Source: Candidatus Calditenuaceae archaeon
Lineage (GTDB): Archaea > Thermoproteota > Nitrososphaeria_A > Caldarchaeales > Calditenuaceae
Assembly (NCBI GenBank): GCA_025058175.1
Contig: JANXED010000001.1
Location: 124,001 to 188,000 of the forward strand
Direction: 5' to 3'
Length of the DNA: 64,000 bases
Shown here: piece after piece, positions 29,539 to 49,561 of the stretch
How the letters are laid out: the number at the start of each line of letters is the position of its first letter
Position numbering within the stretch: position 1 is the first letter of the stretch
Notes under the pieces: model-generated
The model's input: the letters and a program-made list of their open reading frames with translations, nothing else
Told to the model about the DNA's origin: nothing
Databases searched by the model: none
Position numbers and translations under genes: made by a program

Positions 29539-30177
29539 ATGAGTATGGTCTCGACCTCTGCGGAGGCCGTCTACGGGCTCTTCAACCTCTTCCTGACGCT
29601 GGGGACTCTGGTGGGCGTGGTCGTCGGCGCTTACATGCTCTACAACATCCTCAGGTACAAGGCTAAGGAGGACAAGCCTGCCGAGGGCGAGGTGAGCCTC
29701 GGCGAGCTCCCGCCCCCTCAGGGCTTCCCAGTTAAGCTTCTCGTCTCGATCTTCCTGAGCGCCGCGATCGTGTTGTCGCTGATCGTGGGCACCTTCTCGA
29801 TTCTCGAGTACCTTGAGTCCCCACCGAGGGACGCCCTCGAGGTCAGGGTGATCGCGTTCCAGTGGGGCTGGGAGTTCGTCTATCCAAACGGCGCGACGGT
29901 GCTCGGTGAGGGCAGGATACCGGCGAACAAGCCGGTCAAGTTCATCGTCACCAGCAGGGACGTCTTCCACAAGTTCGGGGTCCTCGAGCTTGGAATCGGC
30001 ATCGACGCGATACCGGGCAAAATCAACTACTACTGGACCGAGGTCAGGGTCCCGGGGACCTACGAGGTAAGGTGCTTCGAGCTCTGCGGCCCCGGTCACG
30101 GCGTGATGGTGGGTAAGCTTATTGTTATGGAGCCCTCCGAGTTCGATAAGTGGTACAAGGCTCAGGGAGGTGGTTGA
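29539..30177 (+). CDS. coxB: Cytochrome c oxidase subunit II with CuA site
   Basis: A 212-aa oxidase subunit. ATG 29539 is chosen because CTTTATTT lies 25 nt upstream. A longer frame from 29482 lacks support. Two membrane helices (about residues 12-36 and 66-90) precede a periplasmic cupredoxin domain. CuA ligands are complete: H144 (DVFHKF), C179, E181, C183, H187 and M190 (CFELCGPGHGVM). The aromatic QWGWEF that passes electrons on is present. It takes electrons from a soluble or membrane donor, possibly the blue copper protein at 16355. It is followed after 1 bp by the subunit I/III gene. Confidence 0.95.
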   Translation: MSMVSTSAEAVYGLFNLFLTLGTLVGVVVGAYMLYNILRYKAKEDKPAEGEVSLGELPPPQGFPVKLLVSIFLSAAIVLSLIVGTFSILEYLESPPRDALEVRVIAFQWGWEFVYPNGATVLGEGRIPANKPVKFIVTSRDVFHKFGVLELGIGIDAIPGKINYYWTEVRVPGTYEVRCFELCGPGHGVMVGKLIVMEPSEFDKWYKAQGGG

Positions 30178-30178
30178 A

Positions 30179-32509
30179 ATGGCGCCCGATCCACTACCTC
30201 CTGCCTCATCGATAAAGAGGTGGTTGATGACTACCAGCCACAAGGACGTCGGGATCCTCTACTTGGTGACGTCGATTTACTTCCTCGTTGTGGCCGGAGT
30301 TCTCGCGCTCCTCTTCAGGTTCCAGTTGGTTGACCCCTCGCTGAACTTCCTGAACGCCCAGAAGTTCAACCAGGCGGTCAGCATGCACGGGCTGATGATG
30401 ATCCTCTTCGTGATTTCGCCTCTGGGGTTTGCTCTCGCGAACTACGTCGTGCCCCTCCAGATAGGGGCCAGGGACCTCGCGTTCCCGAGGCTAAACGCGC
30501 TGAGCTACTGGCTCTACCTCTTCGGGGGGATCCTGGCGATTATCTCGTTCTTCCAGGACAGCGCTATAGACGCAGGCTGGACGATGTACGCGCCGCTGAC
30601 CGCGAAGAGCTTCTCGCCGTACGTCGGCGTCGACACGGGAGGGCTCGGTGTGGCCCTGCTCGTGGCCTCGGTGACGGTCTCGACTGTCAACTTCATCGTC
30701 ACGATCTTCAGGTCTAGGGCCCAGGGGTTAACGATCGACAAGCTCCCGATGTTCACCTTCACGATCCTTCTCACGGTCCTGATGATGCTCTACGCGTTCC
30801 CGCCCCTCCTCGCCGCGATCATCATCCTTCTCTCCGACAGAATGCTCGGGACGGTCTACTTCACGTCGCCAGAGGGAGGTTCGTTGCTCTGGGACCACAT
30901 GTTCTGGTTCTTCGGGCATCCTGAGGTCTACATCGTCCTCTTCCCGGCTCTGGGAGCTGTCGCGGAGGTCATACAGGCTTCGACGAGGAGGTACCTCTAC
31001 GGTAGGACCGCTGTGATGATAGCCATGGCGATCGTCGCGGTTTTGAGCTTCTTGGTCTGGGGCCACCACATGTTCAACACAGGCATTAGCCAAGACATCC
31101 GCAAGGTCTTCACGATAACGACCATCGCGATCTCGATACCCTTCGACGCGATAATTCTCTCATACATCTATTCGCTGGTAAAGGCGAAGATACGCATCAA
31201 CACGCCCATGCTCTTCGCGCTCGGGACGATCGGCGTCTTCATCATCGGCGGGATAACCGGCGTCTTCCTAGGGTCCAACGTCCTCAGCTACGTCCTCAGA
31301 GGTACCTACTTCGTCGTTGCGCACTTCCACTACACGATGGTCGGCGGAGGCCTGCTGGGTCTGATCGCGGGACTCTACTACTGGTATCCAAAGATGACCG
31401 GCAGGATGTTCGACGAGAGGCTCGGAAGGATACACTTCGTCGTCTCGATGATCGGCTACAACCTCCTCTACTTCCCGCTCTTCATAGCATGGGAGACCCC
31501 AAGGAGGGTGCCCATTTACCAGCCGGACCTGATTTTCTGGCACCAGCTCGCGACCGCGGGAGGGATCGTCTTCGGTCTCTCCTTCCTGATCATGTTCTGG
31601 AACTTCCTCTGGAGCCTGAAGAACGGTCCGCCGGCCGGGAACAACCCGTGGGGAGCCTTCACCCTCGAGTGGGCCACCGAGTCGCCGCCGCCTCCGAACA
31701 ACTTCCCGGGGATTCCGACCTTCTCTGGCGGCAAGCTCGCGTTCATCTCGACCAACGGAGCTGCCCACGGCCACCACGAGACCCACCTCTCGCCGTACCC
31801 GTTCGCGGTCAGCCTAGGCGCGTTCCTGGCTCTGGCCGGGATCACAGTTCACCCGCTGCTGCTTCTGGTCGGGATAGCGGTCCTCGGCGTGAGCGCGGTC
31901 GGTTGGGGGAGGGAGAGGTTCATCGCTCACGAGGACCCTATAGGCGAGCGCTGGCCCTTCGAGGACGTCGATAGGGTAAAGCTCGGGTGGTGGACGTTCA
32001 TCGCCTCCGAAATCGCGCTCTTCGGGATCGTCATCTCGGCGTACCTCTATGTCAGGACAGCGTCGGCGTCGTGGCCCGCGCCCGGTGCCCTGTTCGACGT
32101 CTGGCACGGAGCAGTCAACACCTTCATCCTCCTAACCAGCAGTCTGACGGTAGTCCTCGCGCTAGCCTCAGCCAAGGCCGACAGGAAGGGGATGACGACG
32201 GCCTTCCTCGCAGCCACCGTCGCGCTCGGGCTCCTCTTCCTCTTCAACAAGTACGACGAGTGGGCCAAGCTCTTCAAGCACGGCGTCACCTTCGGGAGCT
32301 CGCTACCGGCCTCGACGTTCTTCCTGACGACTGGCATCCACGGCGCCCACGTGACGGCAGGGGTAATCGCGCTGCTCTACCTTGTCCACAGGTCCGCCAA
32401 GGGCGCGTACGGGAAGGACAACTGGGAGCCGATCGAGTACTTCGGTTACTACTGGCACTTCGTAGACATCGTCTGGGTGTTCCTCTTCCCGCTGTTCTAT
32501 CTAGTCTGA
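30179..32509 (+). CDS. A-type heme-copper oxidase, subunits I and III fused
   Basis: A 776-aa fusion. The catalytic subunit I part has all six metal-ligand His: H70 (SMHGL), H247 and Y251 (HPEVY, Tyr crosslink), H296/H297 (GHHMF) and H382/H384 (AHFHY). Glu249 of HPEVY is the A1-type D-channel residue. From about residue 590 the chain is subunit III, with DVDRVKLGWWTFIASE, FDVWHGAVNT, HGAHVTAGVIAL and the final EPIEYFGYYWHFVDIVW. It reduces O2 to water and pumps protons. Fused subunit I/III genes occur in several aerobic archaea and bacteria. It starts at ATG 30179, 1 bp after coxB. Confidence 0.95.
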   Translation: MAPDPLPPASSIKRWLMTTSHKDVGILYLVTSIYFLVVAGVLALLFRFQLVDPSLNFLNAQKFNQAVSMHGLMMILFVISPLGFALANYVVPLQIGARDLAFPRLNALSYWLYLFGGILAIISFFQDSAIDAGWTMYAPLTAKSFSPYVGVDTGGLGVALLVASVTVSTVNFIVTIFRSRAQGLTIDKLPMFTFTILLTVLMMLYAFPPLLAAIIILLSDRMLGTVYFTSPEGGSLLWDHMFWFFGHPEVYIVLFPALGAVAEVIQASTRRYLYGRTAVMIAMAIVAVLSFLVWGHHMFNTGISQDIRKVFTITTIAISIPFDAIILSYIYSLVKAKIRINTPMLFALGTIGVFIIGGITGVFLGSNVLSYVLRGTYFVVAHFHYTMVGGGLLGLIAGLYYWYPKMTGRMFDERLGRIHFVVSMIGYNLLYFPLFIAWETPRRVPIYQPDLIFWHQLATAGGIVFGLSFLIMFWNFLWSLKNGPPAGNNPWGAFTLEWATESPPPPNNFPGIPTFSGGKLAFISTNGAAHGHHETHLSPYPFAVSLGAFLALAGITVHPLLLLVGIAVLGVSAVGWGRERFIAHEDPIGERWPFEDVDRVKLGWWTFIASEIALFGIVISAYLYVRTASASWPAPGALFDVWHGAVNTFILLTSSLTVVLALASAKADRKGMTTAFLAATVALGLLFLFNKYDEWAKLFKHGVTFGSSLPASTFFLTTGIHGAHVTAGVIALLYLVHRSAKGAYGKDNWEPIEYFGYYWHFVDIVWVFLFPLFYLV

Positions 32510-32588: not shown

Positions 32589-34535
32589 ATGACTGCGAGT
32601 CCGGAGGACCCGATCAAGGCCTTCAAGGAGCTCTGGGAGGAGGAGAGGAAGGACCCTCAAGGCTTCTGGGAGAGGAGGGCTGAGGAGGCGTGGGAGCGGG
32701 GCGACGTCGTCTGGTTCAGGAGGTGGGAGAGGACCTTCGAGTGGATCTATCCGAGGTTCTCGTGGTTCGTCGGGGGCAAGACCAACGTCGCCTACAACTG
32801 CCTCGACGTCAAGCTGCAGAGGTACGGTGGCAAGCCTGCCTACATTTACCACTCGCCGGAGCTCGGCCTCCATTACTCCATAACTTACGACGAGCTCGCC
32901 TCGACGGTCAGGCGTTACGCGGCAGCCCTTAGGGGAGCAGGAGTGGAGCGAGGGGACAGGGTCCTGGTTTACATGCCGAACTCGGTCGAGGCCGCCGCGA
33001 TGATGCTGGCCTGTGCCAGGATCGGCGCGATCTCCTGTACCGTCTTCTCAGGGTTTTCTTCGGAGGCGGTGGCGGACAGGATCGAGCTGACGACCCCGAA
33101 GCTCGTCTTGACCCAGGACTTCCTCGTCAGGAGGGGCAAGGACGTTCCCCTGAAGCAGAAGCTCGACAAGGCCCTCGAGCGGTTCCCGGGCATGAAGGTC
33201 ACGAAGGTCGTGAAGAGTGTCAGGCCCTCCGAGGAGGTTGAGATGAAGGAGAACGACCTCACGCTTGAGGAGTTCCTGAGGCTCGGCGAGGGCGAGAGCC
33301 ACGAGATGATCGAGACCGACGCCAGCGACCCGATCTTCGTCATGCCCACGTCCGGGACGACCGCTAAGCCCAAGCCGGTTGTGCACGTCCACGGAGGATA
33401 TCAGATCTGGAACTACTGGACGGCGAAGTGGGTGTACGGGCTGGGGCCCGACGACGTCGTCTTCAACACCTCCGACATCGGGTGGATCGTCGGCCAGAGC
33501 TACATCGTCTTCGGCCCGCTCCTCGCGGGGGCTACGGCGGTCATTTACGACGGCACGCCGGACCACCCACACGCCGGGGTCTGGTGGGAGGCGATCTCTA
33601 AGTATAGGGCCACGCTCTTCTGGACCTCTCCTACCGGGCTGAGGATGCTGAGGAGGTTCGGGACCGAGCTTGCGAGGGAATACGACCTCAGCTCCGTCAA
33701 GAGGGTCGCGGTTGCAGGTGAGGTCCTCAACCCCGAGGTCTGGAGGTGGCTCCAGGTCGACGTCTTTGAGAACAGGATACCGGTGATAGACCACATGTGG
33801 CAGACCGAGACGACCGGCGCGCTCTTCGGCTACCCCTACGGCATCGGGGGGAACAGCGTGATGAGGTACATCAAGCCGGGGTCCGCGGGCCTGCCCCTGC
33901 CAGGCGTCGACCCAGTCATCTACGACGAATCGGGAAGGGAGGAGCTACCGAGGGGTCAGAAGGGAGTCCTCTACCTCAGGAGGCCCTTCCCCGGGCTGAC
34001 GCCAACCCTCTGGGACAGCTTCGAGAGGTACGTCTCCTCTTACTGGGAGGTTAGGGTGAAGGGACTCTACTGCACCGGAGACGCAGCCATGATCGACGAG
34101 GACGGATACGTCTGGTTCAGCGGGAGGGCCGACGAGATAATCAAGATCTCCGGTCACAGGATAGGGACGATCGAGGTCGAGAGCAGCCTGATCACGCACC
34201 CCGCGGTCGCTGAGGCAGGAGTCTGCGGTGTGCCCGACGAGCTCAGGGGCGAGGTGGTCGCTGCGTTCGTGGTGCTCAAGCCAGGTTACTCCCCGAGCGA
34301 GGAGCTGAAGAGGGAGCTGATCCAGCACGTCAGGGATACGCTCGGGCCGATCGTGGTCATCAGGGACCTGAGGTTCGTCAACATGCTCCCGAAGACCAGG
34401 AGCGGGAAGATCATGAGGAGGGTGATGAGGAGGCTCTGGCTCGGCCAGGAACTCGGGGACCTCTCAACCCTCGAGGAGGAGGCGTCCGTAGAGGAGATAA
34501 GGGAAGCGGTCGCCAAGATGAAGGAGGTCGGATAA
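32589..34535 (+). CDS. AMP-forming acyl-CoA synthetase (acetyl-CoA synthetase family, copy 1)
   Basis: A 648-aa ligase that makes acyl-AMP and then acyl-CoA from a short carboxylic acid. Motifs are MPTSGTTAKPKPVVHVHG (the ATP loop; Ala-Lys replaces the usual Gly-Lys), MWQTETTGALFG, TGDAA, RADEIIKISGHRIGTIEVES and the C-terminal catalytic Lys in PKTRSGKIMRR. The Trp before QTE, which restricts acetyl-CoA synthetases to short acids, is kept, but the following GG is TG. It could act on acetate, propionate or 3-hydroxypropionate. It is leaderless from ATG 32589 and shares a promoter element with the symporter operon. The next gene is a convergent ion carrier. Confidence 0.88.
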   Translation: MTASPEDPIKAFKELWEEERKDPQGFWERRAEEAWERGDVVWFRRWERTFEWIYPRFSWFVGGKTNVAYNCLDVKLQRYGGKPAYIYHSPELGLHYSITYDELASTVRRYAAALRGAGVERGDRVLVYMPNSVEAAAMMLACARIGAISCTVFSGFSSEAVADRIELTTPKLVLTQDFLVRRGKDVPLKQKLDKALERFPGMKVTKVVKSVRPSEEVEMKENDLTLEEFLRLGEGESHEMIETDASDPIFVMPTSGTTAKPKPVVHVHGGYQIWNYWTAKWVYGLGPDDVVFNTSDIGWIVGQSYIVFGPLLAGATAVIYDGTPDHPHAGVWWEAISKYRATLFWTSPTGLRMLRRFGTELAREYDLSSVKRVAVAGEVLNPEVWRWLQVDVFENRIPVIDHMWQTETTGALFGYPYGIGGNSVMRYIKPGSAGLPLPGVDPVIYDESGREELPRGQKGVLYLRRPFPGLTPTLWDSFERYVSSYWEVRVKGLYCTGDAAMIDEDGYVWFSGRADEIIKISGHRIGTIEVESSLITHPAVAEAGVCGVPDELRGEVVAAFVVLKPGYSPSEELKRELIQHVRDTLGPIVVIRDLRFVNMLPKTRSGKIMRRVMRRLWLGQELGDLSTLEEEASVEEIREAVAKMKEVG

Positions 34536-34559: not shown

Positions 34560-35957
34560 TCACACGATCAGGAGCCAGGCGATCGCGACCGCGGTCGGTA
34601 CCAACGCTCCCACCAAACCCGGCTTTATCCAGCCCGTGAACGTGACGTGGCCCAACCTCTGCCTCTCGACCATGCCTATAGCGACGATGTTCGCGGTGCT
34701 CCCGATCATGGTTAAGTTTCCGACGTAGGTCCCGGCGAACAGCATCGCCCACCACACCTTCTCTGAGACCGCCCCGGACGCGAGCATCTCCTGGACGACT
34801 GGAATCCAGAACGCTACCGCGAGCACGTTGTCCATGAAAGCGGTCATGAACCCCACTATCGAGTAGAGGACCGAGATCACTGCGAACTCCCCCATCCTGC
34901 CGAAGGCCGAAGTTAAGGCGTCCGAGATGAAACCCGTCACGCCCGTGTACCTCAACGTGCCCACCGAGGCGAAAAAGAGCATGAAGAACGTCAGAGTCCA
35001 CCAGTCGACCCGCTTCTCGACCAAGTCCCTCGCCCTCTCCCTCTCGAGGAGTAGGACCGTCCCAGCGCCAGCCATAGCGACGCCGATCAGCATCGTGTTC
35101 TTCTTCAGCCTCAACATCTCTTCAATCGGTGTGTGGAGCACGAGCCCGCCTATCACGCCCAAGAAGACGATCAGGGCGGTCCTGTCGAGCCTGTTGTTGG
35201 ACTTGGGGTTGCCAGCGTGGGCCAGTTGGACCCTCGCCTCCCTCGCGGCCCTTAGCCTAACGTCGAGCTCGCCGAGGAACCCCCTGTAGTAGAGGAAGCA
35301 GGCGGCATAGGTGATCAGCGTAGCGATTATCGCGGGTGGCGTAGCCCACCTGAGGAAGTCCAGGAAGCCGTAACCGGAACTAAGGGCTATCATTACCCCG
35401 ATCGGGTTCCCGACGACCGTGGCGCTGCTGCCGATGTTGGTGGCGAAGACCGTCATCAGCATCAGCGGTATCAGGGGGACTTGGAACCTGCTCGCTAGAG
35501 TGATCACGGACGTCATCATGAAGAGTATTGAGGTCACCTCGTCCACGAGGGCCGCTGAGAGGGCGGACATCAGCATGAGGATGAGTATCAGCCTCGAGGC
35601 GCTCCCGCCTCCGACCCCCAGGACCCTGTCGACCACTACCTCGAAGAACCTCCTCTCTTCAAGGAACCCGATCACGGTCATCATGCAGAGGAGGAACGCG
35701 ATCACGTCTATCCTAGCGAACTCAATGAACGTCGCGACGTCCATCAGCCCCGCCCCCATCAGGATGAAGATCCCGACCATCGCGAAGGCGAGCCTGAACC
35801 TCCAGAACAGGAGCGTCCCGCCAATAATCCCCGTGAAGACGGCCATCGCTATCGCCTGCGGTGCCCCAAGCCCCGCGAGGAGCGTCAGTCCCCCGAAGGT
35901 CAGAGGTATGACGGGGTAAGCGAGTCCCTTCAGGCCCTCGTGACTGATCGGCCTCAT
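34560..35957 (-). CDS. SLC13/ArsB/NhaD-type ion transporter
   Basis: A 465-aa carrier of the ion-transporter superfamily, with two inverted halves of about five helices each and re-entrant loops. The landmarks are SALSAALVDEVTSILFMM with TNIGSSATVVGNPIGVM in the first half, and AFMDNVLAVAFWIPV with NLTMIGSTANIVAIGM in the second, the repeated Asn/Gly-Ser hairpins typical of the family. The substrate may be a dicarboxylate, Na+/H+ or arsenite. No arsenic genes are near. The position next to two acyl-CoA synthetases makes an organic anion plausible. It starts at ATG 35957. Confidence 0.78.
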   Translation of the reverse strand: MRPISHEGLKGLAYPVIPLTFGGLTLLAGLGAPQAIAMAVFTGIIGGTLLFWRFRLAFAMVGIFILMGAGLMDVATFIEFARIDVIAFLLCMMTVIGFLEERRFFEVVVDRVLGVGGGSASRLILILMLMSALSAALVDEVTSILFMMTSVITLASRFQVPLIPLMLMTVFATNIGSSATVVGNPIGVMIALSSGYGFLDFLRWATPPAIIATLITYAACFLYYRGFLGELDVRLRAAREARVQLAHAGNPKSNNRLDRTALIVFLGVIGGLVLHTPIEEMLRLKKNTMLIGVAMAGAGTVLLLERERARDLVEKRVDWWTLTFFMLFFASVGTLRYTGVTGFISDALTSAFGRMGEFAVISVLYSIVGFMTAFMDNVLAVAFWIPVVQEMLASGAVSEKVWWAMLFAGTYVGNLTMIGSTANIVAIGMVERQRLGHVTFTGWIKPGLVGALVPTAVAIAWLLIV

Positions 35958-36511: not shown

Positions 36512-36787
36512 GTGACGAGGGAAGATCCATACAAATGGTACTGGAAGCGGCTTGCGCGAGCGACGCTGGTCTGGTTCGTGATCTGGTTGTTCATCGCGGT
36601 GTTGATAGAGATTCCGAACCCGTACGTCTTCAGAGGGGTGAGGATTGGGTCGCTGCCACCGCTCCACTGGTACGTGCCGGCGTTCATCGTGATCGTCGCG
36701 GGCATCCTGGCGATCTTCGCCTACGCGGCCTACATGGATAAGGTCGACAGGGAGTTCATGAGAATTGCCAAGGAGGGTGAGAGGTAA
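36512..36787 (+). CDS. DUF4212 small subunit of a sodium/solute symporter
   Basis: A 91-aa membrane protein of the DUF4212 family, the small partner of VC_2705-type sodium:solute symporters. The N-terminal segment DPYKWYWKRLARATLVWFVIW leads into the first helix. A short loop PPLHWYVPAF precedes a second helix (about residues 52-72), and AYAAYMDKVDREF follows. These features and the length are characteristic. Start GTG 36512 is 26 nt after the TATA-like box. Its TAA overlaps the symporter ATG (TAATG), so translation is coupled and the two proteins probably form a complex. Confidence 0.9.
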   Translation: MTREDPYKWYWKRLARATLVWFVIWLFIAVLIEIPNPYVFRGVRIGSLPPLHWYVPAFIVIVAGILAIFAYAAYMDKVDREFMRIAKEGER

Positions 36788-38556
36788 TGGGTCTGGTCTC
36801 GGACATAATGTCGGACCCGAAGAGGGCGACCGGGACTGCGTTAGTGGTCTACGCGGCGGCGATCGCGTTCTCGGCGTTGGCGCTGGGGACATACATCGCG
36901 TCTCTGGTGATCGTGATAGGATCGCTCTTCGTGTACTTCGTCCTAGCGCTCAGCCTCAGGAGGGCGACGGTCGAGGCCTTCTACGTCGCCGAGAGGAAGA
37001 TTCCGCCGGTGATCAACGGTGCCGCGACCGCGGCGGACTGGATGTCGGCCGCCTCCTACCTATCGATGGCCGGGACGATCGCGCTCTTAGGATTCGACGC
37101 CCTGATCTACATCATCGGCTGGACGCTAGGTTACACGCTGATGTCGTTCACCGTCGCGCCCTTCATCAGGCGGTCGGACACGTACACCGTGCCGGAGTTC
37201 ATCGAGACCAGGGCCGGGCACTGGGGTCCTGCTAGGATCGTGGCAGTCATCATGCTATTCATAATGAACCTGACGTACCTCTCAGCACAGCTCTTAGGAG
37301 TCGGCGTCGTCTTCGGGAGGTTCCTGGGGATACCTGCCACCATCGGTGTCTTCGTGGGCGTCCTTGGAACGGTGCTCTATTCGTGGACGAGCGGGTGGAG
37401 GAGCATCACGTGGGTCCAGTTCCTGCAGTACATCTTCCTGATCTCGATGTATTGGACGCCGGTGCTGATCGCCTCCTATTACCTCGGGCTCTTCAGGCCG
37501 TTGCCGCACTTCGCCTACGGCGACCTGGTGTCGTCTCTCGAGGCAAAGGAGGTCGCCTACGGTCTCAGGACCTGGACCGAGCCCTTCGCGCGGCCTTTAG
37601 CCGCTGGGACCGGACAGCTGAACTGGATCATGTCCGCCGTCCTCCTGATGCTAGGGACGATGGGGTTGCCCCATATCCTGATACGATACTACACTGTGCC
37701 GAGCATGAGGGACGCGAGGTACAGCGTCGGTTGGAGCCTTGTTTTCATCGGGCTGCTCTACGTGACCGCCTCGATATACGCCGCGATCGCCAGGTACTCC
37801 TTCACCCAGCTCTGGGGGATGCCGGTCAAGGACGCGATGGAGGTGGACTGGGTCAAGAAGTGGCTCCCGACGGGGCTTATCACGATCAGGGACGCCAACA
37901 ACGACGGCATACTTCAGCCTGCTGAACTGACCTTCCACGGCGACATCGTAGTCGTCGGTATGCCTGACATGTTCGGTATGATCTGGATCATCTCACCCTT
38001 CGTCGCGATGGGAGGGCTCGCAGCCGCGATTAGCACCGCCGACGGCCTGCTACTGGCGATGTCGACGGGCGTCACGAGGGACATCTACAAGCGTTTCATC
38101 AACCCCCAGGTCTCAGAGAGGAGCGAGGTTTGGCTGGCGAGGGTGATACTCTGGATTATCGGCGTGATCGCTGCGATCCTCGCTGCGCAAGCGGTTGCAG
38201 ACCCGAGGTTCGCGATCTACGTAGCTCTGCTCGTCGCGTGGGCGTTCGTCTTCGCGGCCTCTTCGCTGACGCCGATCATCATGCTAGGCATATTCTGGAA
38301 GAGGCTGAACAGGTACGGAATAGTCGCTGGGATGATCGCGGGCATGCTGACGGCCTTCCCGTACGTCCTGCTAGTCGGAATCTTCAACTATCCGCCGATA
38401 GAGATCGCCGGCCAGAAGATCGGGACCATCGCTTGGGGCATAATCGGGTTCTTCGCCAACCTGATCACCGCGGTCGTGGTCTCGCTGCTCACGAGGCCAG
38501 AGGGCGAGGAGGTGATGAAATTCGTGGATAAGTGCAGGACGCCCGAGATAAAGTGA
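36787..38556 (+). CDS. SSS-family sodium:solute symporter, VC_2705 type (acetate-like substrate)
   Basis: A 589-aa, about 13-helix LeuT-fold carrier. Family landmarks are EAFYVAERKIPPVINGAATAAD, SAASYLSMAG, YTVPEFIETRAG, TMGLPHILIRYYTVPSM and the sodium-site helix MGGLAAAISTADGLLLAMST. A loop insert of about 60 residues (around 330-390, PVKDAMEVDWVKKWLP) contains a Ca-like DANNDGILQP. Relatives include the acetate permease ActP. A short monocarboxylate is the likely substrate, since two acyl-CoA synthetases flank the operon. It is followed after 4 bp by the CBS/DUF294 protein. Confidence 0.88.
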   Translation: MGLVSDIMSDPKRATGTALVVYAAAIAFSALALGTYIASLVIVIGSLFVYFVLALSLRRATVEAFYVAERKIPPVINGAATAADWMSAASYLSMAGTIALLGFDALIYIIGWTLGYTLMSFTVAPFIRRSDTYTVPEFIETRAGHWGPARIVAVIMLFIMNLTYLSAQLLGVGVVFGRFLGIPATIGVFVGVLGTVLYSWTSGWRSITWVQFLQYIFLISMYWTPVLIASYYLGLFRPLPHFAYGDLVSSLEAKEVAYGLRTWTEPFARPLAAGTGQLNWIMSAVLLMLGTMGLPHILIRYYTVPSMRDARYSVGWSLVFIGLLYVTASIYAAIARYSFTQLWGMPVKDAMEVDWVKKWLPTGLITIRDANNDGILQPAELTFHGDIVVVGMPDMFGMIWIISPFVAMGGLAAAISTADGLLLAMSTGVTRDIYKRFINPQVSERSEVWLARVILWIIGVIAAILAAQAVADPRFAIYVALLVAWAFVFAASSLTPIIMLGIFWKRLNRYGIVAGMIAGMLTAFPYVLLVGIFNYPPIEIAGQKIGTIAWGIIGFFANLITAVVVSLLTRPEGEEVMKFVDKCRTPEIK

Positions 38557-38560
38557 CAAG

Positions 38561-40159
38561 ATGAGCGGCAAGACTAACAGCGACCTCCGGGATCTTATTA
38601 GACAGTTCGACAGTTTTTTGAAGCATTTCAGGGACTCTGTCTCGATAATCTATTTACCCCCGAAGACTGAGGTCAAGCTGTCCGGAAAGGTTTACGTCTA
38701 CAAAGGCGTCATAAGATACAACGAGAATTTTTACGAGAGCGGCGAGAGCCTCATGGTGAGGGGCGGAGTAGTGGCAGAAGAGGAGTCGATCCTCTTGGTC
38801 GACGAGCAAAACGCGGTCCTTCCGGCCTCCTACAGGACTGAAAGCCCCATCTTCGAGGTGATAAGGGGAGAGCCTGTAACGGTCCCTGAGGGCACGACGA
38901 TCAGGGAGGCGGCGAGGGTCATGACCGAGAGGTCGGTCTCTTCGGTAGTTATCGTCAGCGAGGACGGGTACCCGCTCGCGATCTTCACGGACACCGACCT
39001 CAGGAGGGCGGTCGCGAGCGGAGTCGACCTGAACCTGCCGGTGACGTACGTCTCGAGCAGGGAGCTCTTAACCGTAGAGGAGACCACGTCGAGCCTCGAG
39101 GCCCTGATCAGGATGACAATGTCCAACGTCAAGCACCTGATCGTCGTGGACCCGAAGGGAAGACTGAGGGGTGTGGTCACGATGAGGGACATAGCCTACC
39201 GGATGGTTCCGATCCCCCTTCACACCATAAGGGACCTGAGGAGGGTCAAGTCTGCCGACGAGCTCAAGCGTCACCTGAGGGAGGTCGGCGAGTGGGCGAA
39301 GCGGGCCTCGCAGCTCATATTGAACCCCGAGGCCCCTCACCCGCTCCACCTCACGAGGGCAATCAGCTACATCAACGACGAGGTGATGAGGATCGTGATA
39401 GGTGAGGTCGAAAGGGAGCTCGGACACCCACCCCATCCCTTCTGCGTGGCGGTCACGGGGTCTCAAGGCGTGTACGAGCAGTTCGTGGTCACGGACATGG
39501 ACAACTTCATCGTCGCGGCCTACGACGACAGTTACTTCAAGGAGCTAGGGTCTAAGGTGATTGAGAGGCTGCTGGAGCTCGGGTTCCCTGCGTGCAAGGA
39601 CGGCAACACGATGGACAGCCTCCAGTTCTCCGTCCGCAGGCTCGGCGAAGCGATAGAGAGGTCGGGAGAGAGGGACGTCATACTGATGAACCTGATCTAC
39701 GACGGGAGGGCGATCTACGGGCACCGGGAGCTTCTAGATAGAGCGAAGGAAGTGGTACACAGGATCGCGTCGGAGAACCGGGCCAGAGTCCTCTCGAACT
39801 CGCTCCGCTTCAAGCCGCCGCTCACGACCCTCGACCGGGTCAAGAGGACGTTCAAGCCGAAGGAGGAGGCGCTCGCGTCCCTCTCCATGCCCGTCAGGGC
39901 GGTATCGATGGTCCTGGGGGTTCAGGGCGAGACGATACCCGAGAGGATAACGGCGCTCGCCGACAGGTGGGTGATAAGCAGGGAGCTGGAGGTGAGGCTG
40001 AGGGAGGCCTACGATGTCCTCCTAAGGATCAGCGTCTGGGCCAAGTCCCAGGGCAAAGGGGAGCTCCACGCCGACGAGGTCCCGCTCAAGGACGAGCTCA
40101 AGGCGGCCTTGAGGGCCGTGAAGACGTTCCACGATAAGCTCGAGAGGGAGCCGGTGTGA
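38561..40159 (+). CDS. CBS-pair protein with DUF294 nucleotidyltransferase-like domain
   Basis: A 532-aa cytoplasmic protein. Residues 1-95 resemble a degenerate cyclic-nucleotide-binding barrel, 105-225 hold two CBS motifs that usually bind adenylates, and 240-390 the DUF294 nucleotidyltransferase-like domain (GSQG 300-303, E306, D312, D314). The rest is the DUF294 C-terminal helical part. The canonical GS-x-G-R-x-EQ reads GSQGVYEQ here, so the Arg is lost while the acidic residues remain. In bacteria such proteins are encoded with SSS symporters and acetyl-CoA synthetase and are thought to sense energy state and regulate by nucleotidyl transfer. That role here is inferred from the context. 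Its stop overlaps the exonuclease start. Confidence 0.85.
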   Translation: MSGKTNSDLRDLIRQFDSFLKHFRDSVSIIYLPPKTEVKLSGKVYVYKGVIRYNENFYESGESLMVRGGVVAEEESILLVDEQNAVLPASYRTESPIFEVIRGEPVTVPEGTTIREAARVMTERSVSSVVIVSEDGYPLAIFTDTDLRRAVASGVDLNLPVTYVSSRELLTVEETTSSLEALIRMTMSNVKHLIVVDPKGRLRGVVTMRDIAYRMVPIPLHTIRDLRRVKSADELKRHLREVGEWAKRASQLILNPEAPHPLHLTRAISYINDEVMRIVIGEVERELGHPPHPFCVAVTGSQGVYEQFVVTDMDNFIVAAYDDSYFKELGSKVIERLLELGFPACKDGNTMDSLQFSVRRLGEAIERSGERDVILMNLIYDGRAIYGHRELLDRAKEVVHRIASENRARVLSNSLRFKPPLTTLDRVKRTFKPKEEALASLSMPVRAVSMVLGVQGETIPERITALADRWVISRELEVRLREAYDVLLRISVWAKSQGKGELHADEVPLKDELKAALRAVKTFHDKLEREPV

Positions 40160-40689
40160 GCCTATTAGCCTTCGACGCCGAGTACACCAGCCCGAACCCG
40201 AAGGACGCGAAATTGGTGGCGTTCGCTACCGTACCCATAGAGGACGACGTGATAAGGGTCTCGAGGTCGAAGTACGTCGTGGTCTCTCGAGGTCTCGTTG
40301 GGGAGAGCGCTAAGATTCATGGGATAACCGGTCAGGACGGCGTCGACGAGCTAGAGGCGATCGAGGTCCTCTACGAGGAGGTCAACGGGCAGACGCTCGT
40401 GGTCTTCGGGAGGATAGACGTCAACTTCCTCAAGAGGACCTTCGGGAAGAAGCTCAGGGCCAACTATGTCGACGTCGCGTACGGTTACCTGAGGTGGAGG
40501 GCTTCCCGGGAGAACCTCGAGTACGTCCTGATGAGGGAGGGGATGAACCTCACGGAGATCTGCAAGCAGTTCGGCCTCTGCGTGGGAGACTTCATCTTCC
40601 ACAACTCGCTGGTGGACGCGATCCACACGGCCCTCCTGTATCTGAAACTGCGCTCAGTGGGCGTGAGCTTCAGGTTGGAGAGGGTCTAG
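40156..40689 (+). CDS. DEDD-type 3'-5' exonuclease (DnaQ-like) of the acetate module
   Basis: A 177-aa RNase T/DnaQ-fold protein. The catalytic acidic residues are visible: AFDAEYTS (Asp-x-Glu), FGRIDVNFLKR (second Asp, normally NxxFD), and the final His-x4-Asp in HNSLVDAIHTA. Start GTG 40156 overlaps the DUF294 stop as GTGTGA. Bacterial acetate-transport operons carry the same exonuclease gene after DUF294, so this is a retained module rather than a replication gene. Its substrate is unknown and might be a nucleotide signal or short RNA. The 3' end overlaps the convergent small gene by 20 bp. Confidence 0.85.
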   Translation: MSLLAFDAEYTSPNPKDAKLVAFATVPIEDDVIRVSRSKYVVVSRGLVGESAKIHGITGQDGVDELEAIEVLYEEVNGQTLVVFGRIDVNFLKRTFGKKLRANYVDVAYGYLRWRASRENLEYVLMREGMNLTEICKQFGLCVGDFIFHNSLVDAIHTALLYLKLRSVGVSFRLERV

Positions 40690-40978
40690 GGGGCCACCTG
40701 AGCCTTGCGCTCGGCTTGAAGAGGGCCAGCGTCACCATCTTGAGCTTCTTGCCCGAATAGTCCAGGGTAATTGAGATCTTCTTCTGGCCGTCCTCATCGT
40801 AACAGAAGACCCTTCTCCTTCCGAACAGCATCCTCCTTTCATCGAAGCACCTGAGCTCCGGGACTACTATGCCCTTCGGCACCCTCACGAAGAGGTAGTA
40901 AGCGTTCTCGTCTTCGTGCCAGCGGTACGTGCCCGTCGTCCCGAACGCCCTCTCGAAGTACCTCACTAAGAACTCCAT
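40670..40978 (-). CDS. Unrecognised small protein
   Basis: A 102-aa protein from ATG 40978. An upstream TTG (41008) would add ten residues. It has no known motif. The central part alternates hydrophobic and polar residues (AYYLFVRVPKGIVVPELR, ISITLDYSGKKLKMVTL), suggesting a small beta sheet. It is divergent from the acetyl-CoA synthetase at 41082 and could be linked to its control, but nothing in the sequence shows this. Confidence 0.55.
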   Translation of the reverse strand: MEFLVRYFERAFGTTGTYRWHEDENAYYLFVRVPKGIVVPELRCFDERRMLFGRRRVFCYDEDGQKKISITLDYSGKKLKMVTLALFKPSARLRWPPRPSPT

Positions 40979-41081
40979 GGCGTCCCTCGCAGGGTGCGAA
41001 GAGTTCAACGAACTCCTCTGAGGTCAGGTGTCATATGCGTGTGTATTAAACCTTATTACTGACATACATCGTTCTTAGACC

Positions 41082-43094
41082 GTGAGCTACGAGACTTTTC
41101 AGAGCGAGCCCCTGCCGTTCGATGAGAAGATTGTCGTGAAAGGGTGGGAGAACAGGACGGTAGACGTGGAGACTTACTGGAGGTTCCATCAACTGACGAC
41201 GAAGGACTTCGAGAGGTTCTGGGAGAGCGTCGCGAGCGAGATCGAGTGGTTCAGGAAGTGGGACAGGATCGTAGAGCCGGGCGAGTACCCGAACGTCTAC
41301 AGGTGGTTCCCGGGATCGCTACAGAACGTCTCGTACCTATGCCTGGACAGACACGTCAGGACCTGGCGCAAGAATAAGCTCGCGATCCTATGGGAAGGCG
41401 AACCTGTCGACGAACGCGGCGAGCCGAAGGAGGTCAGGAAGCTCACCTACTACGACCTCTGGAGGCTCACCAACAGGATCGCGGAGGGGCTCAGGAGAAT
41501 CGGGGTCAAGAGGGGGTCGAGGGTCGCGATCTACATGCCTATGATACCGGAGCTCCCGGCGGTGATGTACGCCTGCGCGAGGCTGGGAGCGACCTTCACG
41601 GTAGTCTTCAGCGGCTTTACCAGCGAGAACCTCGCGATGAGGATGAGGGACCTCGGGGCGAAGTTCCTGGTCACCGCAGACGGATTCTACAGGAGGGGTA
41701 GGGTCGTGAGGCTGAAGGAGGTCGCGGACTCGGCGTGCCAGCTCTACGACGGGGTCGAGAAGGTGGTAGTGGTCAGGAGGCTGAGGGAGGATGTGCCGAT
41801 GAAGGAGGGGAGGGACGTCTTCCTCGACGACCTCCTGGCGCAGGTCCCCGTCAACGCGTACGTCGAGCCCGAGAGGATGACTATAGATGAGCCCCTCTAC
41901 GTCCTCTACACCTCCGGGACCACGGGCAAGCCGAAGGGGATCATCCACGACCACCACGGTTACTCGGTCATCCTCCACGCGACGATGAAGTGGGTCTTCG
42001 ACATCAGGGACGAGGACGTCTACTTCTGTACCGCCGACATAGGTTGGGTCACTGGCCACAGCTACGTCGCCTTCGGGCCGATCATGGAGGGAGCAACGAT
42101 CGTGATGTACGAGGGCGCGCCGGACTTCCCTGGTCCTGACAGGTGGTGGAGTATCGTCGAGAGGTACGGTGCCACCGTGCTCTACACGACACCCACCGCG
42201 GTCCGGATGCTGATGAAGTTCGGTGAGGAGCCGGTCAGAAGGCACGACCTCTCGACGCTAAGGCTGATCCACAGCGTAGGCGAGCCCATCAACCCCTCCG
42301 CGTGGAGGTGGCTCTTCGAGGTCGTCGGGGGCAAGAGGTGTCCCGTCGGGAGCACGTGGTGGCAGACCGAGACCGGCGGCATCCTGATCAGCCACCTCCC
42401 AGGCCTGATGCTCGTGCCCTTGAAGTCCGGGACCAACGGCCCGCCCTTACCAGGGATCGAGGTCGAGGTCGTCGACGAGCAGGGCAACCCGCTCCCACCG
42501 GGCGCGAAGGGCCTTCTCGTGGTCAAGAAGCCGTGGCCTGGGATGCTGGGACCTCCGACCGGGATGTGGGGCGACCCCGAGGGGTACAACAGGGTTTACT
42601 GGAGCAGGTTCCCGGGCGTCTACTACACCGGCGACTACGCGATTAAGGACCAAGACGGGTACATCTGGGTCGCGGGTAGGGCCGACGAGGTCCTCAAGGT
42701 CGCTGGTCACAGGATAGGGACCTTCGAGCTCGAGTCGGCGCTGGTCTCCAACCCTGCGGTCGCGGAGGCCGCTGTCGTGGGGATCCCGGATCCCGTGAAG
42801 GGCGAGGTCCCGCTGGCCTTCGTCACCCTGAAGGTCGGATACGTGCCCTCTGAGCAGGTCAAGAACGAGCTCCTCACCTGGATAAGGGAGAGGTACGGGC
42901 CCGTCGTCGTTCCTAAGGACGTCCTCTTCGTGAGGGGCCTGCCGAAGACTAGGAGCGGCAAGATCATGAGGAGGCTTCTGCGGGCGGTCGTGATGGGCGC
43001 CCCCCTGGGCGACGTGACGACGCTCGAGGACGAGGCGACCGTGGATGAGGTCAAGAAGGCCTACGAGGAGCTGAAGGAGTACCTGCAGCGCTGA
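41082..43094 (+). CDS. acs: Acetyl-CoA synthetase (AMP-forming)
   Basis: A 670-aa enzyme converting acetate, ATP and CoA to acetyl-CoA. ATP loop YTSGTTGKPKGIIHDHHG, acetate-pocket STWWQTETGG with the Trp gate, YYTGDYAI, hinge RADEVLKVAGHRIGTFELES, and catalytic, acetylatable Lys in PKTRSGKIMRR. The N-terminal VETYWRFHQLTTKDFERFW is the ACS-specific domain. Start GTG 41082 is 26 nt after TTATTA (41053-41058), so it is leaderless. Compared with the copy at 32589 all motifs are canonical, so this is the better candidate for true acetate use. A hairpin plus T6 at 43101-43126 ends the transcript. Confidence 0.93.
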   Translation: MSYETFQSEPLPFDEKIVVKGWENRTVDVETYWRFHQLTTKDFERFWESVASEIEWFRKWDRIVEPGEYPNVYRWFPGSLQNVSYLCLDRHVRTWRKNKLAILWEGEPVDERGEPKEVRKLTYYDLWRLTNRIAEGLRRIGVKRGSRVAIYMPMIPELPAVMYACARLGATFTVVFSGFTSENLAMRMRDLGAKFLVTADGFYRRGRVVRLKEVADSACQLYDGVEKVVVVRRLREDVPMKEGRDVFLDDLLAQVPVNAYVEPERMTIDEPLYVLYTSGTTGKPKGIIHDHHGYSVILHATMKWVFDIRDEDVYFCTADIGWVTGHSYVAFGPIMEGATIVMYEGAPDFPGPDRWWSIVERYGATVLYTTPTAVRMLMKFGEEPVRRHDLSTLRLIHSVGEPINPSAWRWLFEVVGGKRCPVGSTWWQTETGGILISHLPGLMLVPLKSGTNGPPLPGIEVEVVDEQGNPLPPGAKGLLVVKKPWPGMLGPPTGMWGDPEGYNRVYWSRFPGVYYTGDYAIKDQDGYIWVAGRADEVLKVAGHRIGTFELESALVSNPAVAEAAVVGIPDPVKGEVPLAFVTLKVGYVPSEQVKNELLTWIRERYGPVVVPKDVLFVRGLPKTRSGKIMRRLLRAVVMGAPLGDVTTLEDEATVDEVKKAYEELKEYLQR

Positions 43095-46013: not shown

Positions 46014-47097
46014 CGAGTTTTACGTCCGGTCGAAGCTCTTCATGGCGAAGTATCCGTTCTCAGCCAGCGCGAGGGAGTACGTCGCGAGCTACTGGGGCTC
46101 GACGGTCGAGGAGCTCTCGAGGTCTTGGCACGCGGGGGCAGTTGACGCGGCAGTCCGGAGGGTCCTCGATGCAGTCAATCGGGGGGAGGAGGTCGGGGAG
46201 GTCAGGGTCGGGGAGGACGTCGACGCGGAGATCCTCAGCTTCCCGATAGCCCTGATGATGGTCGCCTCGGTCGGGGCCAGCTGGCTCGCCAGGAGGTGGG
46301 CCCTTTACGAGTCGAGGAGGGTCGAGAGGCTCCTCTCGGAGGAGGACGACCCGACGTTGCTGCACCTGTTGAGGGCTGAGCTCGGGATCAGGGTCGAGTT
46401 CGTCCCCACCTCGGAGGAGCAGAGGAAGGGAGGGAGCGCGTATAAGGTCTCCCTCCACGACTACTTGCGGCTGGTGAAGGGCCTCGACGGCGTCGAGTGG
46501 AGGCTCGTGAACAGGACCGTCCACTCTGGGTGGGTTTACGTCTCGAGGCGGGAGCTCATTCGGCTCGCGGCGGAGGAGGTCGAGTCGCGGGTCCTGAGGA
46601 GGGTCTCGGAGGTCGGACAGCCCAAACTCCCCGAGGAGCTCTTGCGGAGGTTGAGCGAGGTGAGGGAGGTCGTCCTCTCGAGGGCCGCGAGGCTCGGGGC
46701 TAAGGCGGAGTTCAGGGGCGAAGAGACTTGGCCTCCGTGCATGAGGGCCCTCAAGAACGCCCTCGTCTCAGGAGGCAAGGTGGGGCACTTCGGGAACTTC
46801 GCGATCGCGACGTTCCTCCTCTCGATAGGCTGGACCGTTGAGGACGTGATCGGCATCTACGCCCAGAGGGCAGACTTCAACGAGAGGATCGCCCGCTACC
46901 AGACCGAGCACATAGCGGGGCTGCGGGGCTCGAGGACGAAGTACTCAGTTCCCTCTTGCCAGACGATGAGGGCCCATGGGCTGTGCGTCGAGCAGGGGAG
47001 GCTCTGCCCTTCGGGCATCAAGAACCCGAGGCAGTACGCGAGGCTCCTTGGGGCGGCGAGGAGGTCAGCCGGAGAGGCCGCAGGTAGCGTCACCTGA
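45994..47097 (+). CDS. priL: DNA primase large subunit
   Basis: A 367-aa Fe-S primase subunit that works with PriS to start DNA chains. The N-terminus LFMAKYPFSASAREYV is typical. The C-terminal Fe-S domain has four Cys: WPPCMRAL, VPSCQTM, HGLCVEQ and RLCPSGIKNPRQY, with HFGNFAIATFLLSIGW between the first two. GTG 45994 is preferred, with GTG 45982 possible. The start lies inside the HD gene. The 3' end overlaps the convergent malate synthase by 8 bp. Confidence 0.93.
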   Translation: MASALPDEFYVRSKLFMAKYPFSASAREYVASYWGSTVEELSRSWHAGAVDAAVRRVLDAVNRGEEVGEVRVGEDVDAEILSFPIALMMVASVGASWLARRWALYESRRVERLLSEEDDPTLLHLLRAELGIRVEFVPTSEEQRKGGSAYKVSLHDYLRLVKGLDGVEWRLVNRTVHSGWVYVSRRELIRLAAEEVESRVLRRVSEVGQPKLPEELLRRLSEVREVVLSRAARLGAKAEFRGEETWPPCMRALKNALVSGGKVGHFGNFAIATFLLSIGWTVEDVIGIYAQRADFNERIARYQTEHIAGLRGSRTKYSVPSCQTMRAHGLCVEQGRLCPSGIKNPRQYARLLGAARRSAGEAAGSVT

Positions 47098-49561
47098 AGT
47101 CGTGCACATACCTGTAGAGCTCAAGGACCTTCGGGTCGGCTCTCCCTTCCCTCACCATCTCCTCTAGCTCATCAGGGCTGCTCCCCAGGACCAGGTTGAT
47201 CGTCGTAAGGGCGGTCTCGTTCTCCATCTCTGCAGCCGCGAAGAGGAGCCTCGCGTTGTGCTGGACGTACCTCGGCGATGTGATCAGGGCCCTCAAGAAC
47301 TCCATCACGAGGGGCGCCCTCGACCTGTCGAACCTGGGCGCGTTCGCGACCACCTCCCTCTTGGCCTCCTCGAGCACTACGCCGAGCTTCTCTGAGACCT
47401 GCTTAGCTGCTTCTTCGGCGCTCAACTCCGCGAACGGCCCGGAAGCGTACGCCCTCCTCAGGACCTCCTTCACCCTCGAGACGAGCTCCGGCTCGGCCCT
47501 GCCCTTCAACGACTTTACGACCCTCTCAGCGGCGATCGAGTCGAGGTCGTCGTAGAAGGCCCGAGTCCACTCGTAGTGGAGTTCCCAGACCTTCCTGAAG
47601 AGCGTCTCGTCGAACCTCGTCCCCTTGGGGACTTGCTCGACCCTCCTCGCTAGCACGACGCCGTCCTTCGTCCTCTCCGGCCCCAGGAGGTAGCCGTCCC
47701 TCGTGACCCGGGCGCCGTTCCTGTAGAGCGACCAGAGCCAAGCCGTGAAGATCCTGTAGGTCGCGAGGTCGTTCATGAAACGCTGATTCAGCTCGTAGTC
47801 GTCGATGGCCGCCGCGAGGTTTCCGTTCAGGATCTGGAAGGCGTAGTTCGCGGCCATGTAGAAGGCGTGCTGGATGTGCTCCACCGTGATCTCCCCCTGG
47901 GGGATCGAGTAGAGGGCCTCCCAGAGCCCCTTCCCTCCCCACAACCTCTCCGAAAAGAGGTCCTCTGGCCTCGAGAGGTCGGACGCCCTGACGGTCCAGG
48001 GCTTGATCTTCCCGTCCTGCGTCAGCAGTCCCAGCTCCGCGAACCTCCTCCTCTCCTCAGGGGTGAGGCCGCTCCCCGGCGCAGGCAACCTCTGTCCCTC
48101 GACCTCGACGTACTCGACCGGCGCGTCGATCAGTCCCTGCAGCTCCTCGAGCCTCGCCCTCAGCGGGGCGTTCCCTGCGGCCACGTACTGCTCCTCCTTC
48201 GTCGCAACCCAGCTCTGCCTGAAGAGGTCGTAGAGCCTCCCCCTATATCTCCCCTCCAGTACGTCCCTCAAAGTCACGACGGCGCCCTCCGGCAGGTCCT
48301 CGGCGACGAAGATCAGACCCGTGAGCCTCTCCCTGAGCTTGTCGATCCAGATCCCCCTGATCGCCCTCGCGTTATACCTGTGGCGTCCGTAGTAGTCTGT
48401 CTGCGGGTAGAGCATGACGGCCGCCATTCCGCCGACCGGTGCGGCGCGGGCCTCTCCGTCCGTCATGCCAGCCATCAGCATGAGGAGCGCGTTGTACCTC
48501 TGATAGACCATCATGTTCGGAGAGGTCATCGTGACGTTCTGCGGGTCCGGGAAGACCGACTCGTCCTTCCACATCTCGATCAGCGACCCGAGGTAGTCCC
48601 AGCGGCCGTTGCTGGACTTGATTAGCCTCTCCCTCCATATCCAGAGAATCACGGGGAGGTAGAGCCCAGCCATCCCCTCCTCGTAGAGCATAGCGACCTT
48701 GATCTCTCCGGTCCTGAGCCCCGCGGCCCGCTCAAGCGACCTGAGCATCCTCTCGACGACTAGCGCCTCCTCCGGCGTCATCACCTTCGGTACGTAGAAG
48801 TAGACTCCAGAGCCAGCCCTCCTCAGCGCGTCGTAATTGTTCAGAAGGTAGACCGTGGCCGAGACAACGATCGCAGGGGCCGGTCTGCCGTCGACGAGGA
48901 CGTAGTGGTCGAGGAGGTGGATTCCTGGGAGCCGATGGAAGACCGCGGGCCACTCTGACCTGGGCTTCCTGATCTCGTAGGACTTCCCTCCCTCGAAGTA
49001 GGGCTTAGGGACCGACTCCGAGAGGACCAGCTTCACGTTCCGCCTGCCCTCCCAGACCGCGGGGCACCTCCTCCCGGACCCCCGGGGCACGAACCAGGCC
49101 GGCGACGCGTCCTCCTCGTCCTCGAACGCGGTCACGACGTCGGCGTTGATCTGGTGGATCGCCCTGCTGAGCGGATACCAGGGTCCGGTGAGCTCGAGGC
49201 CCGCCCTCCTGACGGGGTCGATCTCGTCTGGGACCGGCACCCGGTCGTTCAGCCTCCAGGCGAGCTCGGTCCTCCGGCCGTGGAAGTTGTCGATCAGCCC
49301 CTGGACGATCTCCCTGAACGTCCAGACGTTGCCGTCGGCGTCCGCAAAGCGCTCCTCCCACGACGGGAACCTGCCCTTCGACCTGAGGGGCGACCTGTCG
49401 TCGAGCCACCTCCTCCTCGCGGCGACCGCTGCGTCCAGCTCCGGTCTAAGGGAGACGGTCAGCTCGCCGATCGTTCGCTCCACGTTGAGCGTCCTCGCGT
49501 TGATTACTTTGTCGCCGAGGAGCTCAGGGTACTCGTCGCGGCAGAGAATCTCAACACGCAC
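47090..49561 (-). CDS. aceB: Malate synthase (large archaeal form)
   Basis: An 823-aa enzyme condensing glyoxylate with acetyl-CoA to malate. The catalytic TIM barrel shows FYVPKVMTPEEA, MLYEEGMAGLYL, the diagnostic GRWDYLGSLIEMWK, and GGMAAVMLYPQTDYYGR. A C-terminal domain of about 250 residues follows. The length matches the large malate synthase described from Sulfolobus rather than bacterial MSA or MSG. Together with two acyl-CoA synthetases it suggests growth on acetate by the glyoxylate route. Isocitrate lyase is not in this window. It starts at GTG 49561. Confidence 0.9.
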   Translation of the reverse strand: MRVEILCRDEYPELLGDKVINARTLNVERTIGELTVSLRPELDAAVAARRRWLDDRSPLRSKGRFPSWEERFADADGNVWTFREIVQGLIDNFHGRRTELAWRLNDRVPVPDEIDPVRRAGLELTGPWYPLSRAIHQINADVVTAFEDEEDASPAWFVPRGSGRRCPAVWEGRRNVKLVLSESVPKPYFEGGKSYEIRKPRSEWPAVFHRLPGIHLLDHYVLVDGRPAPAIVVSATVYLLNNYDALRRAGSGVYFYVPKVMTPEEALVVERMLRSLERAAGLRTGEIKVAMLYEEGMAGLYLPVILWIWRERLIKSSNGRWDYLGSLIEMWKDESVFPDPQNVTMTSPNMMVYQRYNALLMLMAGMTDGEARAAPVGGMAAVMLYPQTDYYGRHRYNARAIRGIWIDKLRERLTGLIFVAEDLPEGAVVTLRDVLEGRYRGRLYDLFRQSWVATKEEQYVAAGNAPLRARLEELQGLIDAPVEYVEVEGQRLPAPGSGLTPEERRRFAELGLLTQDGKIKPWTVRASDLSRPEDLFSERLWGGKGLWEALYSIPQGEITVEHIQHAFYMAANYAFQILNGNLAAAIDDYELNQRFMNDLATYRIFTAWLWSLYRNGARVTRDGYLLGPERTKDGVVLARRVEQVPKGTRFDETLFRKVWELHYEWTRAFYDDLDSIAAERVVKSLKGRAEPELVSRVKEVLRRAYASGPFAELSAEEAAKQVSEKLGVVLEEAKREVVANAPRFDRSRAPLVMEFLRALITSPRYVQHNARLLFAAAEMENETALTTINLVLGSSPDELEEMVREGRADPKVLELYRYVHDFR

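Follow-up and report, generated by a model that had tools for sequence, protein, structure and literature searches.

A 64,000-nucleotide stretch from the genome of a hot-spring archaeon, a Candidatus Calditenuaceae member (assembly GCA_025058175.1, contig JANXED010000001.1, positions 124,001 to 188,000; hereafter the window) carries a four-gene module in which the two subunits of a sodium/solute symporter are followed by a CBS/DUF294 nucleotidyltransferase and a DnaQ-like exonuclease. With modest confidence, we read the locus as devoted to the uptake and activation of acetate or a related short monocarboxylate, where DUF294 and the exonuclease form a regulatory pair for SSS-family transporters and likely act on the transporter itself, a small protein (m112) is an accessory and the parts are of mosaic origin. 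The pair has been known beside the acetate genes of Pseudomonas for years without a mechanism, and our literature searches found no paper describing it in archaea. The archaeal breadth of the pair, the split of DUF294 into two genes in some archaea, the mosaic origin of the locus and m112 are new here. The source genome is 57% complete and the window lies on one of its contigs, 368 kb in length.

The four module genes are intact and adjacent on the forward strand, and all of them exceed curated cut-offs, in agreement with the families that the original prediction had placed here. They encode the DUF4212 small subunit (36512-36787, GTG start; PF13937 39.9 bits; TIGR03647 28.1 bits, cut-off 26.05), the VC_2705-type large subunit of the symporter (36787-38556; TIGR03648 526 bits, cut-off 320.75), the DUF294 protein (38561-40159; CBS pair 76.7, PF03445 68.6 and DUF294_C PF10335 34.4 bits) and the DEDDh 3'-5' exonuclease (40156-40689; RNase_T PF00929 42.6 bits). 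The starts and stops were said to overlap throughout, and this is the case at two of the three junctions, by one base between DUF4212 and symporter (TAATG, 36787) and by four bases between DUF294 and exonuclease (GTGA, 40156-40159), while the symporter and DUF294 are separated by a 4-base gap (38557-38560). The gene for acetyl-CoA synthetase (acs) does follow after one small gene as had been stated, but that gene, m112 (40670-41008), runs on the reverse strand, in divergent orientation to this acs copy (ACS2), which therefore falls outside the transcription unit of the module. By eye, a putative TATA-like element TTCATATA lies about 27 bases 5' of the GTG at 36512 and a second TATA-like element stands 5' of the ACS2 GTG at 41082; both would fit leaderless promoters. 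Comparison of the window with the sister genome L045 revealed purifying selection, with ratios of non-synonymous to synonymous substitution (dN/dS) ranging from 0.04 to 0.19 where calculable (symporter 0.04, exonuclease 0.12, m112 0.19; synonymous sites of DUF294 were saturated), so the open frames are not due to chance.

The set is common among thermophilic archaea and bacteria. Above its cut-off, the symporter model matched 12 of 250 Thermoproteota genomes, 30 of 197 genomes of the phylum with the Archaeoglobus locus and 66 of 249 of the phylum with the Ramlibacter locus, and the neighbourhoods of 73 symporter loci, a few of them from the same species, were read. DUF294 and exonuclease were both present at 47 of these loci and both missing at 24, and DUF294 stood alone at two, one cut by a contig end (L058) and one a possible real exception (L069). 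Outside the haloarchaea, DUF294 occurred at every archaeal symporter locus surveyed and the exonuclease at nearly all. DUF4212-symporter genes with DUF294 were present in Pyrodictiaceae, Pyrobaculum oguniense, a Thermoproteales genome, Methanomethylicia and Archaeoglobi, accompanied by the exonuclease except at cut contigs and L069, and variants of the same set were present in Thermodesulfovibrio, Armatimonadota and Thermaceae. The conservation across domains that had been claimed for the set therefore holds, linkage being common in other archaea, and its counterpart beside acs in proteobacteria was found as well (loci L221 and L222; PMC9927547).

Linkage of the pair extends to other transporters of the SSS family. 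A profile search of 250 Thermoproteota genomes that took the exonuclease, and not the symporter, as its starting point returned 14 exonuclease matches, one per genome, which covered all 12 symporter-bearing genomes and only two of the 238 without the symporter (Fisher p 1e-18, on genomes that are not phylogenetically independent). In those two genomes (G076 and G228), DUF294 lies directly next to the exonuclease and to SSS symporters that most resemble PutP and PanF (L273:4416-9437 and L274:17-3561), and no acs was seen near them in the stretches read. It is thus SSS-family transporters, and not acs or acetate, that the pair accompanies, and this is chiefly why the transporter is preferred as its object; the archaeal survey narrows that object to this family.

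The DUF294 protein of the window consists of an N-terminal domain of about 92 residues, two CBS domains, a nucleotidyltransferase domain and DUF294_C. The aspartates D312 and D314 of the DxD motif and D381, which was assigned as the third carboxylate by inference, are kept in the window, as in all 50 primary copies. The AlphaFold2 (AF2) model (pLDDT 84.9) gave its best structural matches over the nucleotidyltransferase half, to DrrA (6yx5, E 6e-10) and to both halves of GlnE (3k7d and 1v4a, E 3e-9 and 1.5e-8), proteins with 12-15% identity and other regulatory domains, and its CBS domains superpose on the AMP-bound CBS pair 2rif with a root-mean-square deviation of 1.1 A at 31% identity. As the catalytic aspartates are kept and the model resembles GlnE, DrrA and AMP-binding CBS pairs, protein nucleotidylation by DUF294 is plausible. 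Bacterial copies have a cNMP domain (PF00027) and the GSxGR motif; the window copy differs in its short N-terminal domain and in the motif GSQGVYEQ, where the Arg of GSxGRxEQ is replaced by Val, as it is in L045 and L046 of the same Calditenuaceae-P. oguniense lineage, whereas the remaining 47 primary copies keep the Arg. PF00027 had no match in the DUF294 proteins of the window, L045, L046, L031 and L049.

Archaeoglobi and Methanomethylicia loci encode two DUF294 genes each (L055-L057, L059-L062, L064, L066, L068 and L188-L193). The first copy adjoins the symporter, lacks the N-terminal domain and keeps DxD, and the second adjoins the exonuclease and has an N-terminal region of 148-180 residues, in which the one copy tested matched the cNMP domain PF00027, and has lost the first Asp of DxD in 18 of 18 cases. 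This division of labour suggests that sensing and catalysis have to work jointly, with the exonuclease belonging to the sensing side. The narrowing to SSS-family transporters, these natural splits and m112 make the function testable.

The exonuclease of the window retains its catalytic residues in alignments (D7, E9, D88, H149 and D154). Of 43 proteins, 42 keep the D/E/H/D positions; at the second-motif aspartate, 35 have D and 6 have E. The exonuclease of one proteobacterial module (L220, genome G314) has lost all five residues (AARQE). Its nearest solved structures by sequence are the PolC and DnaQ exonucleases (2p1j and 8h18), with which it has the fold family and catalytic residues in common, but it does not belong to a polymerase and is tied instead to DUF294 and an SSS transporter. 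These residues and relatives would also fit an enzyme acting on RNA, which would trim or degrade the operon mRNA or nanoRNA while DUF294 serves as a nucleotide sensor with its catalysis separate. A role in mRNA decay has been proposed for PP_0353 of Pseudomonas putida (PMC9927547), and the absence of DxD from all 18 exonuclease-linked DUF294 copies of Archaeoglobi and Methanomethylicia also points this way. Against it, a general RNase would not need to be paired so strictly, over two domains of life, with DUF294 and a transporter of the SSS family, and we consider an RNA substrate a serious but rather unlikely explanation.

In the regulatory reading that we prefer, DUF294 would bind adenine nucleotides at its CBS domains, the target modified by its nucleotidyltransferase domain would most likely be the transporter, and the DEDDh partner would probably hydrolyse a phosphodiester product of DUF294 activity. 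The DUF4212 protein and symporter would import acetate or a similar short monocarboxylate, which as acetate would be converted to acetyl-CoA by the two acetyl-CoA synthetases of the window, ACS1 and ACS2. Control by nucleotidylation and its reversal had been raised in the original prediction; its first half gains from the conserved residues and adenylyltransferase-like model of DUF294, while the exonuclease as the reversal enzyme is a guess from gene pairing. The idea is not new, as regulation by nucleotidylation is already in print for Pflu5625 of P. fluorescens (PMC5715377). PP_0354/PP_0353 and Pflu5625 represent the same pair of a cNMP-CBS-nucleotidyltransferase and an exonuclease, and are targets of MxtR/ErdR, that is CrbS/R (PMC9927547, PMC5715377). 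In P. putida the two genes form an operon and PP_0354 is a direct MxtR/ErdR target (PMC9927547); the Pseudomonas pair is co-regulated with acs and in P. aeruginosa lies beside actP/yjcH. The neighbours at the window locus differ in including m112 and two acs genes. Control in the CrbS/R regulon is by an SSS-STAC kinase and a response regulator; STAC kinases are reported to be absent from archaea (PMC5715377), and the window genome was not searched for them.

In an alternative along the lines of the original prediction, the pair controls acetate activation, DUF294 nucleotidylating Acs or the glyoxylate enzymes and the exonuclease removing the group. In its favour, acs neighbours the module in Calditenuaceae, Archaeoglobi, Methanomethylicia and Armatimonadota as well as in certain proteobacteria, and the P. 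putida pair is located near glcB (PMC9927547). However, Pyrodictiaceae and several proteobacterial loci have the pair and the symporter with no acs in the stretches read, the pairs beside PutP- and PanF-like symporters were likewise seen without acs, and all 13 haloarchaeal loci have the order acs-DUF4212-symporter without the pair. We regard control of Acs as improbable, and the transporter is the more likely object. The same PutP/PanF-linked pairs and pairless haloarchaeal operons contradict the earlier proposal that the pair does something specific for acetate.

For the substrate of the locus itself, the linkage to acs and the analogy with Haloferax volcanii lead us to infer acetate or a similar short monocarboxylate. 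In H. volcanii, deletion and uptake experiments established acetate import by the acs7-HVO_A0155-ssf-uspA operon, whose transporter is co-transcribed with acs7 (PMC7746861). Both systems combine an SSF transporter, a small gene and acs in an archaeon, and we infer that HVO_A0155 is a DUF4212 protein, in keeping with the surveyed haloarchaeal order. The Haloferax operon differs in having no DUF294, exonuclease or m112, and the haloarchaeal symporters fall in a distant clade. An ActP-type permease is also present in Pyrodictium delaneyi, which does not use acetate as an electron donor (PMC5556600), and this calls for caution on the substrate.

Several points weigh against the reading that we favour. 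The substrate is assigned by analogy and related transporters carry other monocarboxylates. The resemblance to GlnE and DrrA is at fold level only, and small molecules and RNA are also among the targets of nucleotidyltransferases with this fold. The Arg to Val change and the lack of an N-terminal cNMP match make the activity of the window DUF294 less sure. In P. putida, deletion of either gene of the pair leaves growth on 20 mM acetate unaffected (PMC9927547), and acetate-inducible haloarchaeal operons manage without the pair. Deletion of the P. putida exonuclease does slow or delay growth on pyruvate, as does deletion of actP-I (PMC9927547).

The small protein m112 (112 residues, 40670-41008 on the reverse strand) represents, by its alignment, AF2 model and recurrence beside one symporter clade, a previously unnamed conserved family. 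It has the conserved motifs HED, CFDE, CYDE and WPP, and is modelled as one helix and six strands (pLDDT 91.3). Searches of Pfam, NCBIfam and PDB sequences returned nothing that matched it, and the fold search gave no match below E 0.001; DcrB, the top match with a template modelling (TM) score of only 0.40, was not used as a fold relative. Homologues were present in 3 of 300 Thermoproteota genomes, in 2 of 118 from the phylum of Thermodesulfovibrio and in 3 of 111 from that of Meiothermus. The gene adjoins the symporter in eight of nine loci of a single symporter clade that spans archaea and bacteria and in none of the 66 other loci. In Meiothermus rufus the homologue lies apart from the module (L228:8400-8735), between mutY-like and GntR-like frames, unlike the placement in two other Deinococcota genomes. 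As its distribution tracks the symporter and not the regulators, m112 is a probable transporter partner and would act as an accessory of its symporter clade. A bolder and doubtful extension would make m112 a subunit or adaptor, DUF294 a nucleotide-sensing writer on SSS transporters and the exonuclease its eraser in bacteria and archaea alike, the split loci of Archaeoglobi and Methanomethylicia then pairing a sensorless catalytic copy with a cNMP-bearing pseudo-enzyme beside the exonuclease.

The module genes do not have one history. The window symporter is 93% identical to that of Candidatus Calditenuaceae archaeon SKYB46, the nearest named relative, which makes the source an archaeon of Aigarchaeota type; it is 71% identical to that of P. 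oguniense, 67% to that of M. rufus and 65% to that of Thermodesulfovibrio. In a mixture-model tree it grouped with symporters of Thermodesulfovibrio, Thermaceae, Armatimonadota, one Bacillota and P. oguniense (99/95), apart from those of Archaeoglobi, Methanomethylicia and Pyrodictiaceae, and a single archaeal symporter clade was rejected (approximately unbiased test, p-AU 0.0008). The DUF294 proteins of the window and P. oguniense were instead sisters within an archaeal group (100/100), and their placement with thermophilic bacteria was rejected (p-AU 7e-47); as the groups tested were chosen after the first trees, these p values are somewhat favourable. Exonucleases of Calditenuaceae and P. 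oguniense grouped together (100/99), then with those of Thermoproteales and Pyrodictiaceae (95/95). The conflict between the trees signifies that transporter and regulators differ in history at this locus, which is a cross-domain mosaic of a transporter and m112 with recent ancestry shared with thermophilic bacteria and an archaeal regulatory pair. The locus shows that a regulated transporter can be reassembled out of components from separate domains of life. The module was earlier called bacterial in style; its four genes do stand together, yet they are not of one bacterial lineage, and independent assembly is partly borne out. Transfer of a complete bacterial operon into this archaeon would suit the identity of the symporter to those of Thermodesulfovibrio and Meiothermus, its grouping with them and the presence of the module in two of about 12 family members, but is contradicted by the archaeal grouping of both DUF294 and exonuclease and is very unlikely. 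An assembly of mere hitchhikers that share no function, as the variable gene order and orientation between groups and the weak phenotypes of Pseudomonas single-gene deletions (PMC9927547, PMC5715377) might imply, is hardly credible given purifying selection and near-perfect co-occurrence over several phyla. The symporters and DUF294 proteins of Methanomethylicia nest among those of Archaeoglobi, which suggests that the module has passed between the two groups.

The window encodes two acetyl-CoA synthetases. ACS2 (41082-43094, forward strand; TIGR02188 853 bits, cut-off 725), an acetate-CoA ligase with its own apparent promoter, is present in 10 of 10 tested family members, whether or not they have the module, and is the resident acs of the lineage. 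ACS1 (32589-34535, forward strand; NF001208 667.9 bits, cut-off 657, and below the TIGR02188 cut-off), which the original prediction had left unconnected, is acetyl-CoA synthetase-like and 58% identical to the module-linked acs of L049. Between ACS1 and the module lies a CitMHS-family transporter (34560-35957, reverse strand; PF03600 151.8 bits), which is present with the module in L263 and missing together with it from L258. Among about a dozen family members searched, several of them more than 90% complete, the module was found in the window and one congener (G938, SKYB46). The congener G247 has the order coxA-acs-ychF without the module, and its coxA-acs gap (L258:6474-6974) contains two short stretches that match ACS1 in collinear order (E 8e-5 and 3e-4), one of which encodes EEVREVVAKAKEKK followed by a stop, resembling the ACS1 C-terminus EEIREAVAKMKEVG. 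This relic in a sister genome without the module indicates that ACS1 probably belongs to the module block and that G247 probably lost the ACS1-CitM-module block. The gap was also considered as an empty pre-insertion site, which was set aside as the relic makes deletion likelier. In G098, coxA adjoins ychF and acs is located elsewhere, an order that makes gain at this site and later loss the simplest reading, though not a proven one. Base composition was unconvincing as proof of recent transfer (block G+C 59.7% against 62-65%, third positions 80-88% against 84-92% in the neighbours).

Other genes of the region include a frame of 795 residues directly 5' of ACS1 (30122-32509), which encodes a heme-copper oxidase with an apparent fusion of subunits I and III. 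A malate synthase of 823 residues is encoded near the module (47090-49561, reverse strand), and an isocitrate-lyase-superfamily frame, which may be another member of that superfamily, occurs elsewhere in the same genome (G000:C81:6850-7443). Together, the malate synthase and the lyase-like frame could possibly constitute a glyoxylate shunt for growth on acetate.

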